This document shows positions 5,093 to 18,556 of a stretch of 19,338 nucleotides of DNA, piece by piece (positions within the stretch are counted from its first letter, which is position 1; each line of letters begins with the position of its first letter). The stretch is from assembly GCA_023145655.1 (NCBI GenBank), contig JAGLDI010000001.1, positions 1 to 19,338 on the forward strand. Reading direction: 5' to 3'. The stretch is from Desulfuromusa sp. (GTDB lineage: Bacteria > Desulfobacterota > Desulfuromonadia > Desulfuromonadales > Geopsychrobacteraceae). A program made the translations under genes and the position numbers. The notes under the pieces are model-generated. The model did not search any database. It had not been told where the DNA came from and worked only from the letters and a program-made list of their open reading frames with translations.

Positions 5093-5561
5093 CAGCGGGC
5101 TTTGCAGAATAATTGGCAGATTCCGCCCCGGATGGCAGTTAATATTTCTTTTCGCCAATTTCAGCATGATTCTCTGGTACAGACAGTGGCAGAAGCACTC
5201 TATTGCACCAAGATAGAGCCCGGTTGTCTAGAGCTGGAAGTGACCGAGGGGATGGTGATGAATAACGTTGAACAGGCAATTGCAAAAAAAAATGGAGGAA
5301 TTTAATGCGATGGGGGTACATCTGGCGATTGTTAATTAGATCATCGCTCTAGGTAATAATATGTCACTGGAGATTATTGCTGAAGGGATAGAACCCGTTG
5401 AACAGCATGATTTCTTACAAAAGGAAGGCTGTGATCAGGGGCAGGGATTCTTGATGGGAAAACCAATGGCCAAGGCTGAACTCCCCACCTTGCTGGATTC
5501 CGTTGTCCTCAACCCTCCTGAAGTTCTTACGAGAATAATGAAAATATCAGAAGCTTCCTAA
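5093..5561 (+). pseudogene. Decayed EAL-domain (c-di-GMP phosphodiesterase) fragment
   Basis: This is the C-terminal part of an EAL domain broken in several ways. The first piece (about 5093-5290) reads ...MAVNISFRQF...LELEVTEGMVM, the usual middle of an EAL domain. The second piece (about 5292-5561) reads MEEFNAMGVHLA and later LEIIAEGIEPVEQ...GQGFLMGKP, the usual end. The frames meet at a run of nine A bases (5284-5292), so a slippage frameshift is likely. The second piece has an in-frame TAG at 5337-5339. The roughly 40 residues that normally lie between HLA and the IVN-IIALG helix are absent, including the DDFGTG metal-binding loop and the catalytic lysine. The N-terminal part of the domain and any GGDEF or sensor domain are also missing. 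The product cannot be an active phosphodiesterase. Confidence 0.88.
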
Positions 5562-10669: not shown

Positions 10670-11950
10670 CTAAGTATCCATCTTTTCAATCAGTCTTTCC
10701 AAATAGCGTGATTTCATCTGTTTGCTGGCCATTGCCTGTTTGATCGGCGGCAGTCGTAAAATCACTCCGAACAGTGCAGCAAGGGCACGGTGGCTGAACA
10801 GCGCCCGATTATCAAAAATCAGGTTCTGTAATTTGCCTCGTTCAATCGCCATGACAACGGCTCGGTGAACCCCGTTGAGTGGAGTCAGGACCCGTTCCGG
10901 TCGTGATTTGAGTTTGATCACTTTTTCTGGACAATTGCGGACACACAGGCCGCAACCGAGGCAGCGATCTTCAATCAGGGTTGCTTGCTTGCGATTTGGG
11001 TTTTTGGGATCATTGGCTGAAGAGAGGGCGATGGCTTCCACTGGACAAACGTTGACGCATTTGCTGCATCCAGTACAGTTGTGTTGATCAATTTCTGGAA
11101 TGAAGTTGGTGGTGTGAACCGGATTTAAAATAGTAAAGCGCCGGGCGGCAATCATTGCTTCACAGCAACAGCCACAGCAGTTGCAGATAAAATTCACATC
11201 TTGTCGAACGTTTTCTCCGAATTGGACCAGATTGTGGTCGTAAGCCTGTTGCAGGAGGTCGAGCCCCTCAGCACTGTCAATCAGGCGGGCATGGCCGTGT
11301 TTGGTGAGCGATGCCGCAGGACTGTTCAACGTCATGCAGATCTCCATCGGCGCATCGCAGGCTTTACCCAGGTGGAACATTTTGTGGCGACAGTAACAGG
11401 TGCCGACGCCGATATGGGTTGCTGTTTTAATCACCTCGCTGGCTCGCTCATAGTCGAGAACATGCAGGGCATCTTGGTTGGTCAAAACCGGTTCGTGGAT
11501 GAAAGTTCGACCGAGTTGAGTCTCTCCACGAGCCATCAGTTCACGAATAAAATCTTCTTCAACATTCATGTATTGATAGAACAATTCACTGAGAACCTTC
11601 TGGTCAATATCACCCCGGGTACGCATCAATGAAAATTCAAAAAAACCAGCCATGGGAGGAGGGAGAACGTAAACTGATTCCCCATTTTGCTCCAGATCCA
11701 CCAGAATAGCTCGGCTGGCCAGTTCTTCGAGTACTTTGCGGGTTTCAGTCAGGTTGACCTTCCAGATTTGACTGGCTTTATTTGCATTGAAGGGTTTAAT
11801 CGGTAGTTGAGCAACCAGTCCCGCTTCCTTTTCACTGAATAATATGGCAAGAATTTTATAGAGTAATTGGGATGGTGGTGCCCCTTGCGGGTAGCGGTTG
11901 AGCCGATCAGCCAGGTTGGAATAACTGGACTTGAGAGTGTGGTGAGCCAT
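10670..11950 (-). CDS. 4Fe-4S dicluster protein with N-terminal winged-helix-like region
   Basis: This cytoplasmic protein has 426 residues from the ATG at 11950, preceded by GGGGA. An in-frame TTG at 11962 would add four residues and is less likely. The N-terminal ~100 residues look like a helical, winged-helix-type region (LLYKILAILFSEKEAGLVAQL, then TRKVLEELASRAILVDL). The middle has scattered Cys (C185, C187, C198, C205) and a striking CNCCGCCC cluster (256-263). Two bacterial ferredoxin motifs follow, CTGCSKCVNVCP (292-303) and CLGCGLCVRNCP (330-341), enough for two [4Fe-4S] clusters. The C-terminal ~80 residues are basic and Cys-free. Members of this loose family occur in anaerobes without a proven function. 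An electron carrier or redox-sensing role is plausible. It is divergent from the msrA gene, so the two may share a control region. Confidence 0.75.
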   Translation of the reverse strand: MAHHTLKSSYSNLADRLNRYPQGAPPSQLLYKILAILFSEKEAGLVAQLPIKPFNANKASQIWKVNLTETRKVLEELASRAILVDLEQNGESVYVLPPPMAGFFEFSLMRTRGDIDQKVLSELFYQYMNVEEDFIRELMARGETQLGRTFIHEPVLTNQDALHVLDYERASEVIKTATHIGVGTCYCRHKMFHLGKACDAPMEICMTLNSPAASLTKHGHARLIDSAEGLDLLQQAYDHNLVQFGENVRQDVNFICNCCGCCCEAMIAARRFTILNPVHTTNFIPEIDQHNCTGCSKCVNVCPVEAIALSSANDPKNPNRKQATLIEDRCLGCGLCVRNCPEKVIKLKSRPERVLTPLNGVHRAVVMAIERGKLQNLIFDNRALFSHRALAALFGVILRLPPIKQAMASKQMKSRYLERLIEKMDT

Positions 11951-12107
11951 ATCATTCCCCAATTTTATAAAAATGAGAGACGGAGATAGAGATCTAATAC
12001 GATCAATATTACGGGTTTCAGATAAAAAATCAATAATTCACAGCAATGAAAAAGATTATTTTGCGGTTGGACTTGCCGGGAAGTGGCGAGGAGTGCAAAA
12101 TACTGTT

Positions 12108-12953
12108 ATGAAACAAAAAAATATGACATTACGCACGTGGTTGATACGCTTTCTGCTCCTCTTCAGTTTTGTCGGTATTGGGTTCTTACTGTCGGCGGGT
12201 TCGATAGAGAGCCTTTTGACGTCCCTGCGGGAGTTAAATTGGGCTTACGCCGGGCAACCTTCACGCCCCCGTCCTGAAATTGATCTTCAGGTCCCTGAAA
12301 CAACCGAGACGGCTCTGTTTGCCCTTGGCTGATTTTGGGGCATTGACTCCCGGTTCGGGAGTGTTCAGGGTGTTTATCGAACCGATGTTGGCTATGCCGG
12401 GGGCTCAGAATCAAAGCCAAGCTATGTCGGTATAAAAGATTATAGTGAAGTGGTTCTGGTTGAATTTGATCCACAGAAGGTCTCCTATCAACAGCTTCTG
12501 GAGATCTTTTGGGCGAGTCATAATCCAACCCATGAAATTTTCAGTCGCCAGTACCGCAATGCGGTTTTTTACCTGTCTGAAGAGCAGCGGATTCAGGCAA
12601 AGCAGTCCCGTGCGGATATCAGGAAGATCAAGAACCGACCGGTTTATACTGCGATTGAAAAAGCTGGTAATTTTTATTCAGCTGAGGATTATCACCAGAA
12701 ATATTATTTGCGCAGACTGGATAAATTGATCGGTGAATTCAAGCAGATTTACCCGGATAACAATCAGTTTGTTGCATCAACTGCAGCCGCAAAAATTAAT
12801 GGTTATCTTGGCTGTAATGGTAATCCGGAAGACTTGAAAAAAGAGGTTGCCTTTTTTGGACTGTCTCCAGCGGCACAGACGTATTTAGTTAGCTACGTTG
12901 CAACAGCTTGCAGTCGTTTTAAGGGACTATCCTGCCCTGCACCGAAGAAGTAG
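12108..12953 (+). CDS. msrA: Selenocysteine-containing peptide methionine sulfoxide reductase A (MsrA)
   Basis: The reading frame is one 281-residue protein if the TGA at 12330-12332 is read as selenocysteine (U75). MsrA reduces methionine-S-sulfoxide in proteins. Its active site is normally GCFWG, and here it is G-U-F-W-G. The same frame continues without another stop through TDVGYAGG (~92-99), a SYQQLLEIFW segment, a HNPT segment, FYSAEDYHQKYY and the end. Both sides of the TGA are therefore family sequence in one frame, unlike a decayed gene. Residues ~11-31 form a hydrophobic segment suggesting export or a membrane anchor. An extension after ~225 carries C236, C268 and C276, candidate resolving cysteines. 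The ATG at 12108 follows GAGGAG at a longish 14 bases; a longer frame to 11973 lacks such support. No Sec synthesis genes are in the window. Conventional annotation would report two truncated ORFs. Confidence 0.88.
12330..12362 (+). promoter_or_regulatory. UGA-Sec codon with SECIS-like hairpin in msrA
   Basis: Thirteen bases after the TGA, ACTCCC (12346-12351) pairs perfectly with GGGAGT (12357-12362) around the loop GGTTC. A seventh G-C pair could close it to a GTT loop. Bacterial SECIS elements are short stem-loops just inside the coding region after the UGA, with a G-rich, U-containing apical loop that is bound by SelB; the E. coli fdhF element has a comparable GGUCU loop. Position and shape fit. 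Whether the lower part pairs further is unclear. Confidence 0.75.
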
Positions 12954-15447: not shown

Positions 15448-16428
15448 ATGAAAATAACAATCGGCAAATTGATAATCCTGTTAGCGCTGGTGGCGCTGGC
15501 ACTGCCGGTCAGCACAAGTTTGGCCAGTGGCGATGTTAAAGAAATTCATTTTATTATTCCCGGTGGTGCTGGTGGCGGTTGGGATGGAACGGCCCGCGGC
15601 GTTGGCAAGGCGTTGCTCGATTCTGGATTGCTGAAACAAACCTCATTTGAAAATATGTCCGGTGGCGGCGGCGGTAAAGCGCTGAATCACTTGATCAGTA
15701 CTGCTAAACGTCAGCAGGGCACCCTGTTGGTCAACTCGACCCCGATTATTATACGCTCGCTGACCGGCGTGTTTCCCCAATCTTTCCGTGACTTGACGCC
15801 AATTGCTTCAGTTATTGCCGATTACGCCGCTCTTGTTGTCAAAAAAGACTCTAAATATCAGACTCTTGACCAAATCATGGACGATTTCAAAAAAGATCCA
15901 CGTTCGGTCAAGATAGGCGGCGGTTCAGTTAAAGGTGGCATGGATCATCTGGTCCCGGCAATGATCATCAAGGGTGCTGGTGGTGATCCATTGAAGCTTG
16001 TTTACATCCCCTACGATGCTGGTGGTAAAGCAATGGCAGGACTCCTCTCCGGCGATACACAGATACTCTCAACCGGTTTCGGTGAGGCTCTTGGTTTGGC
16101 AAATCAGGGTGAAGTGCGGATTCTCGCTATCACTTCTGACGAGCGCCTCGCTATGGCTCCTGATGTGCCAACAGTTAAGGAATCTGGTATCGATGTGACC
16201 TTTGCTAACTGGCGTGGTTTCTTCGGTGCTCCTGGATTACCAGAAGCCAAAGCTCAGGCTTATCGTGATCTACTGAAAAAAATGTATGATACCCCGGAGT
16301 GGGAAGAAATTCGCAGTAAACGTGGTTGGCAAAATCTCTATCAGCCGGGCGCTGAATTCACCACTTTTCTGGAAAATCAGGAAAAGGCCATTGGTAGCAT
16401 GATGCGTGAGCTCGGATTTATAAAATAG
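15448..16428 (+). CDS. tctC: TctC-type periplasmic substrate-binding protein
   Basis: This 326-residue binding protein of a tripartite tricarboxylate transporter captures a carboxylate in the periplasm and hands it to the TctA/TctB membrane pair. A signal peptide (basic start, then LIILLALVALALPV, cleavage near SLA-SG at ~27) precedes the mature protein. The family features are IHFIIPGGAGGGWD near the N-terminus, a SGGGGGKALN stretch, IPYDAGGKAMAGLLSGD (~188-204) and GVDV/NWRGFFGAPGL-like sequence (~255). The glycine-rich PGGAGGGWD matches the citrate/tricarboxylate-type TctC pattern, but substrates of this family vary widely (citrate, dicarboxylates, aromatic acids) and cannot be named. The ribosome site AAGGAG is strong. 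It is the first gene of tctC-tctB-tctA, followed by a large hairpin. Confidence 0.92.
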   Translation: MKITIGKLIILLALVALALPVSTSLASGDVKEIHFIIPGGAGGGWDGTARGVGKALLDSGLLKQTSFENMSGGGGGKALNHLISTAKRQQGTLLVNSTPIIIRSLTGVFPQSFRDLTPIASVIADYAALVVKKDSKYQTLDQIMDDFKKDPRSVKIGGGSVKGGMDHLVPAMIIKGAGGDPLKLVYIPYDAGGKAMAGLLSGDTQILSTGFGEALGLANQGEVRILAITSDERLAMAPDVPTVKESGIDVTFANWRGFFGAPGLPEAKAQAYRDLLKKMYDTPEWEEIRSKRGWQNLYQPGAEFTTFLENQEKAIGSMMRELGFIK

Positions 16429-16449
16429 CACACGAAAACCATAGAACAA

Positions 16450-16492
16450 TTGGGCACTTCCCTCCTCAAGAAGTGGAGAGGGGGGTGCCCAA
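16450..16492 (+). terminator. Hairpin between tctC and tctB (partial terminator or mRNA stabiliser)
   Basis: TTGGGCAC (16450-16457) pairs with GTGCCCAA (16485-16492). An inner stem joins TTCCCTCC to GGAG-A-GGGG with small bulges, and TTTAATAT follows. It lies in the 99-bp gap between tctC and tctB. Such hairpins commonly let a binding-protein gene be expressed above its membrane partners, by partial termination or by protecting the upstream mRNA. Confidence 0.75.
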
Positions 16493-16527
16493 TTTAATAT
16501 CGATAGTAATATCTGAAAGGGTTTTTT

Positions 16528-17007
16528 ATGGCTAGGGAAAAGATAGGAGCGCTGGTGATGCTGCTCTTTTCGATGGCTTACGGGTTGCTGGCATTCAGAA
16601 TCCCCTTAAGTTTCATGGATCAGGGTGAATTTTTCACCTCACGAACCATGCCATATGCCCTTGCTGTTCTGGGGACTATCCTTTCATTACTTATTCTAGT
16701 AATGCCGACCGTTGATCCAGAGGGCAAGCGAACCCTTACGGAAGAGACCCATGGCATGGACTGGAAAAAAGCGATCCTGTTGGTCGTTGGGATGATTATT
16801 TACGGATTAGTGATGAAGTGGCTAGGCTTCATTATCTCTTCAATCGTATTTTTGCTATGCGGGTTCTACATCCTCGGAGAACGACGGATTAAACGGATGC
16901 TACTGGCGGCAATTCCATTAGTGCTTCTCCTCTGGGTCATTATGTCGGCTCTGCTTGATGTCTACATTGCACCGGGTGAAATCTTCTACATGCTGGGGGT
17001 CTTATAA
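16528..17007 (+). CDS. tctB: TctB-type small membrane subunit of the tripartite transporter
   Basis: This 159-residue inner-membrane protein has about four to five helices: IGALVMLLFSMAYGLLAF, TMPYALAVLGTILSLLILV, a long AILLVVGMIIYGLV/IISSIVFLLCGFYIL pair, and AAIPLVLLLWVIMSALL. A hydrophilic loop lies at ~65-80. TctB proteins are poorly conserved, and the call rests on size, topology and position between tctC and tctA. The ribosome site is AAAGGG. The stop codon TAA is separated from the tctA ATG by a single base, consistent with coupled translation. Confidence 0.9.
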   Translation: MAREKIGALVMLLFSMAYGLLAFRIPLSFMDQGEFFTSRTMPYALAVLGTILSLLILVMPTVDPEGKRTLTEETHGMDWKKAILLVVGMIIYGLVMKWLGFIISSIVFLLCGFYILGERRIKRMLLAAIPLVLLLWVIMSALLDVYIAPGEIFYMLGVL

Positions 17008-17008
17008 T

Positions 17009-18556
17009 ATGTGGGATGGAATGTTTAGCGGCATGTTAACCGGGATCAGCACCACATTGATCCCGATGAATATCGCTATGGTGCTGTTCGGTTGCTTTAT
17101 GGGTAGCTTGATTGGCATGTTGCCGGGCTTGGGACCAATCACTGCGGTAGCACTGATGATCCCGGTCACCTACGGGCTGGATCCTGCCACTGGAATGGTA
17201 CTGTTGGCCGGTGTTTACTACGGTGCCATCTTTGGCGGTTCGACCTCGTCAATACTGATTAATGCTCCCGGAGAGGCAGCTACGGTTGCTACTGCACTCG
17301 ATGGCTACCCGCTGGCGCGTCAGGGATATCCCGGCAAAGCTTTGGCTATAGCGGCTTATGCTTCTTTTTCTGGCGGGACTATTTCGGTCATCATGTTGAT
17401 GGTCTTTGCTCCAATACTGGCCAGTGTCGCGACCAGTTTTCAATCAGCCGATTACTTTGCTCTGATGATTCTCGGTCTGACCGCAGTTTCGGCTTTTGCC
17501 GGGCGGGGTGGAGTGCTCAAGGCGCTACTGATGGTGGTGCTTGGGTTGATGCTAGCCACAGTTGGGACCGATCAAACCTCTGGAGTACAACGTTTCACCT
17601 TTGGCTCACTGGAATTACTCGATGGCATCGAATTTTTACTGCTGGCAATGGCGACTTTTGCTCTGACCGAGGCACTATCGATTATTCTCAAGCGGGATGC
17701 CTCTTCCGATAGTCTTGACCCGAAGCTGATTGGCTTCAAAAGCCTCAAGGTGACCAAGAAAGAGTTCAAACAGATCGGTCCGACTATCGGTCGCTCATCA
17801 CTGCTCGGATTTTTTATTGGCGTTCTACCTGGTGCCGGCGCGACTCTTGGTTCCTTTATGGCTTACGGTATGGAACGTAACCTGGCATCACCAGAAGAGC
17901 AGAAGAAATTTGGTAAGGGGAGTTTGCGCGGGTTGGCCGCGCCAGAGGCCGGCAATAATGCTGCAAGTTCAGGATCTTTCGTGCCGCTGCTCTGCCTCGG
18001 TATTCCCGGATCTGGTACGACTGCAGTCATGCTCGGTGCGTTGATTGCTTACGGAATCGAGCCCGGACCCCGTATGCTCACCGCCAGCCCCGAGGTCTTC
18101 TGGGGCTTGATCATGTCAATGTACCTAGGCAACGTTTTTCTGCTGATTCTTAACCTACCACTGATCCCCTATTTTGCTCGCTTGCTGGCAATTCCACGTA
18201 ACTTTATGGTGCCGATGATCCTGTTTTTCTCATTGATGGGAGTCTATCTGATCACCTTCAACGATTTCGATATCCTGATGATGGTTATCTTCTGTATCGC
18301 CGCCATGGCGCTGCGCTTGATGAACTTTCCTATGGCGCCGTTGCTGCTTGGATTTATCCTCGGGGGGCTGATGGAAGACAACCTTCGTCGAGCTTTACTG
18401 ATCTATGACGAATCTCTCAGCTTCATGTGGGAACGGCCGCTAACCTTGGGGATTAATTTGACAACTCTTTTCATTCTTCTGTTTCCGCTACTGCGTTCCT
18501 TTCTGGCCAGACGTAAGAGTGGGGGGGACTCCGATGACAGAGAAGTGGCTGCTTGA
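17009..18556 (+). CDS. tctA: TctA-type large membrane subunit of the tripartite transporter
   Basis: This 515-residue inner-membrane permease has about twelve helices. Family motifs include GSLIGMLPGLGPITAVALMIP (glycine/proline-rich, near ~35-55) and YYGAIFGGSTSSILINAPGE (~75-95). The pseudo-repeat in the second half has GVLPGAGATLGSFMAYG and GNNAASSGSFVPLLCLGIPGSGTTAVMLGAL. The two glycine-rich repeats are the hallmark of TctA. A longer open frame begins at 16955 inside tctB, but the ATG at 17009, preceded by GGGGG at a good distance and one base after the tctB stop, is the natural start. With TctC and TctB it forms a cation-coupled carboxylate importer. It ends at TGA, followed by a terminator. 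Confidence 0.95.
   Translation: MWDGMFSGMLTGISTTLIPMNIAMVLFGCFMGSLIGMLPGLGPITAVALMIPVTYGLDPATGMVLLAGVYYGAIFGGSTSSILINAPGEAATVATALDGYPLARQGYPGKALAIAAYASFSGGTISVIMLMVFAPILASVATSFQSADYFALMILGLTAVSAFAGRGGVLKALLMVVLGLMLATVGTDQTSGVQRFTFGSLELLDGIEFLLLAMATFALTEALSIILKRDASSDSLDPKLIGFKSLKVTKKEFKQIGPTIGRSSLLGFFIGVLPGAGATLGSFMAYGMERNLASPEEQKKFGKGSLRGLAAPEAGNNAASSGSFVPLLCLGIPGSGTTAVMLGALIAYGIEPGPRMLTASPEVFWGLIMSMYLGNVFLLILNLPLIPYFARLLAIPRNFMVPMILFFSLMGVYLITFNDFDILMMVIFCIAAMALRLMNFPMAPLLLGFILGGLMEDNLRRALLIYDESLSFMWERPLTLGINLTTLFILLFPLLRSFLARRKSGGDSDDREVAA

Follow-up and report, generated by a model that had tools for sequence, protein, structure and literature searches.

Strong sequence support for a selenocysteine-containing methionine sulfoxide reductase A with a predicted membrane segment and three conserved cysteines in a Desulfuromusa-like clade

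A selenoprotein form of methionine sulfoxide reductase A (MsrA) that carries a helical domain has been described before in Clostridium (Alkaliphilus) oremlandii, and Pfam models the domain as PF20939 (MsrA_helical; Selenoprotein methionine sulfoxide reductase A, helical domain). The available parts of the reports on this enzyme, CoMsrA, give 4LWJ as its structure (PMC4333827) and describe a protein of 209 residues with one selenocysteine (Sec), no Cys, a helical domain at residues 145-209 and recycling by glutaredoxin (PMC4333827; PMC4479559); in the dimer, Gly177 is the closest contact of the two helical domains, at 6.5 A (PMC4479559). For the 3-Cys MsrA of E. coli, the portion of the source available describes a relay with Cys-198 and Cys-206 as the recycling pair (PMC6316033). 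The selenoprotein MsrA of Chlamydomonas, as far as the accessible text goes (PMC9404770), is also a Sec MsrA but a eukaryotic one, and is likened here by name. Sec-MsrA is listed among prokaryotic selenoproteins in the available text of two reviews (PMC9312934, PMC13188914), which holds nothing on the location of MsrA, and is also named in that of a marine survey (PMC2398784). No exported or three-cysteine Sec-MsrA appeared in the titles and abstract openings covered, subscription literature being mostly outside this coverage. The variant described here, a Sec-MsrA of a Desulfuromusa-like clade, is counted as new because it has an N-terminal hydrophobic segment together with three conserved cysteines (C236, C268 and C276), and its novelty is provisional since the literature coverage was partial.

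The window, by which the whole analysed stretch of 19,338 nucleotides is meant, holds on its forward strand an msrA coding sequence at 12108..12953, with 281 residues and a TAG stop (12951-12953) when one in-frame TGA is read through; the features of this gene given below lie on the same strand. Its start codon is taken to be the ATG proposed in the original prediction, and the starts of the relatives, themselves chosen by script, are nearby. Translation shows that the sole TGA is residue 75 (12330..12332), in the context ...LFALG-U-FWGIDSRFG..., the GCFWG motif being G-U-FWG here. The PMSR family (PF01625) matches across this codon (residues 68-203, 6.7e-41, 140.5 bits against a cut-off of 23.7), the read-through protein exceeds the TIGR00401 cut-off (128.6 against 108.1 bits), and the PMSR match and structure alignment place the catalytic domain at residues 67-203 (12306..12716). 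The best solved relatives are MsrA structures, including 4u66 and 4lwj, and U75 aligns with their catalytic Cys. The original prediction of an MsrA with a single in-frame TGA at the catalytic Cys codon is thus confirmed, as is its view that the gene is hidden as two open reading frames, which under the standard code are 11973-12332 (119 aa) and 12450-12953 (167 aa).

Gene finders usually split this gene at the UGA, and the database entries point to misannotation. Among the 120 best-listed of 680 database relatives, the active-site motif is absent from 84, and carries C in 31 and W in 5; entries with C do not distinguish Cys from Sec. Within the same 120, the motif is missing from 57 of the 58 proteins with a CPAP tail. 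These 120 include the window's own fragment (P0003), and contig ends may have truncated some others.

Compared with CoMsrA (PDB 4LWJ and others), U75 corresponds to residue 16 and the alignment is gapless from window residue 67 to 252 (CoMsrA 193), covering most of the helical domain. The offset from CoMsrA residues 145-209 places the putative helical domain of the window protein at residues 204-268 (12717..12911), the alignment itself reaching residue 252. The C-terminal 100 residues score 11.7 bits with PF20939, below the cut-off of 23.7, and at 1e-3 this family matches 52 of 83 aligned Sec-MsrAs and 4 of the 14 members of the three-cysteine clade; the helical domain would therefore be divergent here. 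Unlike CoMsrA, the window protein has about 59 more N-terminal residues with a hydrophobic stretch and, in place of Sec alone, also contains C236, C268 and C276. The original prediction mentioned neither these cysteines nor the helical-domain lineage and the frequency of export-like segments within it.

Regarding the cysteines, all three (codons at 12813..12815, 12909..12911 and 12933..12935) are Cys in every one of the 14 aligned clade members, and by reading also in L143. In alignments with the 69 other Sec genes, column 236 holds G in 60, R in 7, H in 1 and N in 1, column 268 holds Cys in none, and column 276 holds Cys in 13 with a gap in the remaining 56. By the alignment offset of 59, the clade-specific C236 occupies the place of CoMsrA Gly177. 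C268, likewise specific to the clade, and C276 lie in the tail 8 residues apart, which is the spacing of Cys-198 and Cys-206 in E. coli; the two enzymes were compared by spacing rather than by aligned tails, and unlike the E. coli protein with its catalytic Cys, the window protein has Sec and a tail that follows an extra helical domain. This likeness of spacing suggests that C268 and C276 may form a thiol relay. Alternatively, the cysteines could serve no relay, C268-C276 being a structural disulfide that stabilises an exported tail while a partner resembling glutaredoxin or thioredoxin reduces Sec directly, as in C. oremlandii, a reading that agrees with the characterised CoMsrA, described in the available parts of the reports as working with glutaredoxin and having no Cys (PMC4333827; PMC4479559), and with the lack of Cys at column 276 in 56 of 69 other Sec-MsrAs. 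Against it, both the spacing of 8 and the C-terminal place fit the E. coli recycling pair, and the Cys at column 276 recurs in 13 of 69 relatives spread across the tree (11 changes), so that a purely structural disulfide is possible though somewhat doubtful.

A hydrophobic N-terminal segment, recognised by hydropathy and probably a membrane anchor or signal, covers residues 15-29 (12150..12194). Under a strict hydropathy rule it is present in 13 of the 14 clade members; in the fourteenth (L015) the segment lies nearer the domain and escapes the rule. Export-like segments occur in 53 of 69 other Sec-MsrAs, 26 of the 69 having a lipobox-like motif alongside, and in 1 of 17 Cys MsrAs (L061), all counted with a crude rule that misses domain-proximal segments and with start codons chosen by script; in three clade members the lipobox pattern also matches within the hydrophobic stretch, which is probably fortuitous. 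The segment would probably tether the enzyme to the inner membrane, leaving the catalytic and helical domains on the periplasmic side, and the helical-domain Sec-MsrA lineage looks largely exported, to judge from these sequence features. The predicted hydrophobic segment thus stands, while the action outside the cytoplasm that was proposed with it remains a hydropathy-based prediction. That the protein is instead cytoplasmic, or membrane-bound and facing inward, the segment exporting no domain, would be in keeping with an export prediction drawn from hydropathy and with the 16 of 69 other Sec members that have no such segment; its presence in 13 of 14 clade members and the lipobox-like motifs of 26 of 69 other Sec members fit export, and this arrangement is unlikely.

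Conservation of the TGA was followed in three sets of relatives. Within the family, 15 of 44 genomes (own included) have this gene type at E <= 1e-40, and all 15 have TGA at the catalytic codon. Across 60 genomes of the order (own included), the same codon is TGA in the genome analysed here and in 15 others (L001 and L003-L017 in all); rows for two further loci (L019, L026) mention TGA, yet both are Cys genes, and the TGA rows G031:C67 and G051:C16 stand outside the codon-level reading. Of 283 relatives confirmed among named genomes, the best 80 were kept, and in 78 of these the catalytic codon is TGA (77 by pattern, plus L114), the two exceptions being Cys genes (L061 with TGC and L089, Microcoleus, with TGT); this proportion is no census, because the 80 were selected for their closeness to a Sec query, and nine of them (L035-L043) are probably the same contigs as loci from the order search. 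Alignments cover 83 of the 86 TGA genes (without L016, L114 and L143), and the TGA is shared by 14 of 14 aligned clade members and by L143. Homologues thus have TGA at the same codon and not at unrelated sites, in line with the original prediction. The gene with all three cysteines is also present in the cultured Malonomonas rubra DSM 5091 (L041).

Directly behind the TGA, in the position of a bacterial SECIS element, a hairpin of 7 pairs was found at 12346..12362 by folding, a codon-aware test and pair counts in relatives, its loop (12353-12355) lying 20 nt downstream of the TGA; this bears on the SECIS check called for in the original prediction. In 14 of 14 aligned clade members, the TGA is followed by a stem of GACTCC...GGGAGT type. 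When compared with synonymous recodings using each gene's own codon use, the fold was better at p <= 0.05 in 14/14 clade genes (mean z -2.92) and in 51/69 other Sec genes (mean z -2.52), as against 2/17 Cys genes (L025 and L061; mean z 0.05), the latter being the part of the available Cys rows made up of 15 from the order search or own genome and two from named genomes. Codon 84 is GGG throughout the clade (14/14) and in 68/69 other Sec genes. The pairings counted over 82 distinct rows include U-A (45) and G-C (32) at pair 19-31, C-G (39) and U-A (18) at pair 18-32, and G-C (62) and A-U (12) at pair 23-27. Cells changed on both sides numbered 64, against 24.6 in shuffles that ignore relatedness, with none of 500 shuffles as high, and this count dropped to 0-23 when the pairing partner was slid. 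Two of five covariation measures did not rise above the shuffles, namely pairs changed on both sides (3; 459/500 as high) and further pair types (9; 184/500 as high). Of the 82 rows, 41 lack the outermost pair 17-33 and 18 lack pair 18-32; the general helix is therefore one of 5 to 6 pairs. No Rfam family was matched by the hairpin, and in dinucleotide shuffles the window's own local fold was not clearly stable (z -1.10 to 0.13). As codon-level comparison of the relatives indicates, the hairpin is kept by codon choice and by paired changes. In L061, a helical-type Cys (TGC) MsrA from a Syntrophobacterales MAG, the hairpin slightly exceeds synonymous expectation (p 0.047) and is perhaps a relic SECIS left after a change from Sec to Cys.

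A nonsense mutation, gene decay or a sequencing error at the Cys codon has in its favour that TGA is one base away from TGC and TGT and that the same metagenome-assembled genome (MAG) encodes a second, intact MsrA of the Cys type (TGC, contig C15). However, the part of the gene behind the TGA is better conserved than the part before it (window against L003: dN 0.172 and dS 0.837 on the 3' side, dN 0.468 and dS 0.878 on the 5' side), and by these rates purifying selection acts on the post-TGA part. Most TGA genes, against 2 of 17 Cys genes, have a hairpin that exceeds synonymous expectation, which also argues against decay or error, and the same TGA in 15 of 15 family members and 78 of the best 80 of 283 relatives rules decay out; this explanation is rejected as very improbable.

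Regarding the machinery of selenocysteine incorporation, the window's MAG (1,478,505 bases, 84.63% complete) has SelB (344.5 bits, cut-off 242.25), tRNA-Sec, the product of selC (64.8 bits, cut-off 47), and SelD (353.9 bits, cut-off 125), cut-offs which were passed in 2, 5 and 2 of 14 control genomes, respectively. There were no matches to selA in this 84.6% complete MAG. In the relatives search, selA was above cut-off in 31 of 38 genomes (own included), and in 4 of 4 relatives examined the match coordinates leave a gap of about 26 to 166 bases between the end of selA and the selB match downstream of it; contig C180 (3,091 bases) of the MAG ends just upstream of selB, and selA is likely missing because the contig breaks beside selB. 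The expectation that the genome would carry the Sec genes was therefore borne out for selB, selC and selD, and selA was not found. On the same contig, the selD gene (L115, reverse strand, approximately 1133-96) has a near-start in-frame TGA and is a second selenoprotein gene of this genome.

General recoding, in which UGA would be read as an ordinary amino acid (Trp or Cys), agrees with the W in the motif of 5 of the 120 best-listed among 680 database relatives but is rejected as having a negligible probability, because TGA acts as a normal stop (terminating 5 of 16 window ORFs taken as genes), selB, selC and selD are present, the TGA-linked hairpin is conserved and the position is that of the catalytic Cys in homologues.

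Thus, the U75/Cys alignment, the hairpin in the SECIS position, selB, selC and selD, and the TGA at the same codon in homologues uphold the predicted selenoprotein, and a real selenoprotein MsrA is strongly supported, with sequence evidence behind the decoding. The reading as a whole, a Sec-MsrA whose UGA would be decoded as Sec and which would be anchored in the inner membrane, facing the periplasm, and recycled by tail cysteines, is considered highly probable. In the proposed mechanism, SelB and tRNA-Sec would decode UGA codon 75 as selenocysteine, aided by the hairpin behind it, and the U75 selenolate of the enzyme, probably held in the inner membrane by the N-terminal segment so that the catalytic and helical domains face the periplasm, would reduce methionine-S-sulfoxide there. 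The least certain steps follow: the selenenic acid would probably be resolved by a tail cysteine (C276 or C268), the C268-C276 disulfide would be handed, in the manner of 3-Cys MsrA, to a thiol reductant of the periplasm, and C236 may have a role in the dimer or serve as an additional resolving thiol. Among the neighbours of msrA, no gene for a reductant was recognised. Neither a DsbD/CcdA-type protein nor MsrB was found in the MAG; in the relatives search they were present in 36 of 38 and 34 of 38 genomes (own included), respectively, and because most relatives' genomes have them, their absence may reflect incompleteness. To our knowledge, glutaredoxin is usually absent outside the cytoplasm. 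A broader proposal, offered tentatively and falling a little short of the probable, is that a Sec-only, glutaredoxin-dependent design gained in this periplasmic Sec-MsrA its own relay (from U75 to a tail Cys to C268-C276) and the dimer-interface C236, making it rechargeable outside the cytoplasm, and that the helical-domain lineage serves anaerobes chiefly in envelope repair. The way in which a catalytic Sec regains its reduced form outside the cytoplasm becomes a testable question, and the cultured M. rubra carries the gene.

Regarding family history, a tree was built, after masking of the catalytic column, from 83 Sec proteins and 17 Cys proteins, its bootstrap being incompletely settled. 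A fully supported branch (100/100) sets the 15 short Cys MsrAs apart from all others, and the 14 three-cysteine proteins form one group (98/88; 87 in the quick tree). The Sec/Cys state needs three changes on this tree, which fits one gain and two losses (L061, L089). By database records, the other Sec members belong to Acidobacteriota, Chloroflexota, Synergistota, Spirochaetota, Thermodesulfobacteriota, Planctomycetota and Bacillota and are mostly MAGs; records labelled only Deltaproteobacteria are partly filed as Myxococcota, which is doubtful. The longer-type Cys MsrA of the cyanobacterium Microcoleus sp. FACHB-DQ6 (L089) is nested among Sec genes, which perhaps reflects transfer with loss of Sec. 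MsrA of this type is fused to MsrB (SelR) in P0083 and, by its listed domains, in P0089, and 1 of the 83 Sec genes has a SelR domain.

Regarding the neighbourhood in the window, a gene for a 4Fe-4S protein (10670..11962, reverse strand) is divergent from msrA; in 8 loci of relatives, the two genes are immediate neighbours in 4 and one gene apart in another. At 5102-5561 (forward strand), two short ORFs that are probably the broken remnant of a cyclic-di-GMP phosphodiesterase gene each match a different part of a single EAL domain (8.7e-05 and 7.7e-06), below the curated cut-off in both cases. Genes resembling those of a tripartite tricarboxylate transporter lie at 15448-18556 on the forward strand, and the first, which was the sole gene checked, matches TctC at 1.5e-24.
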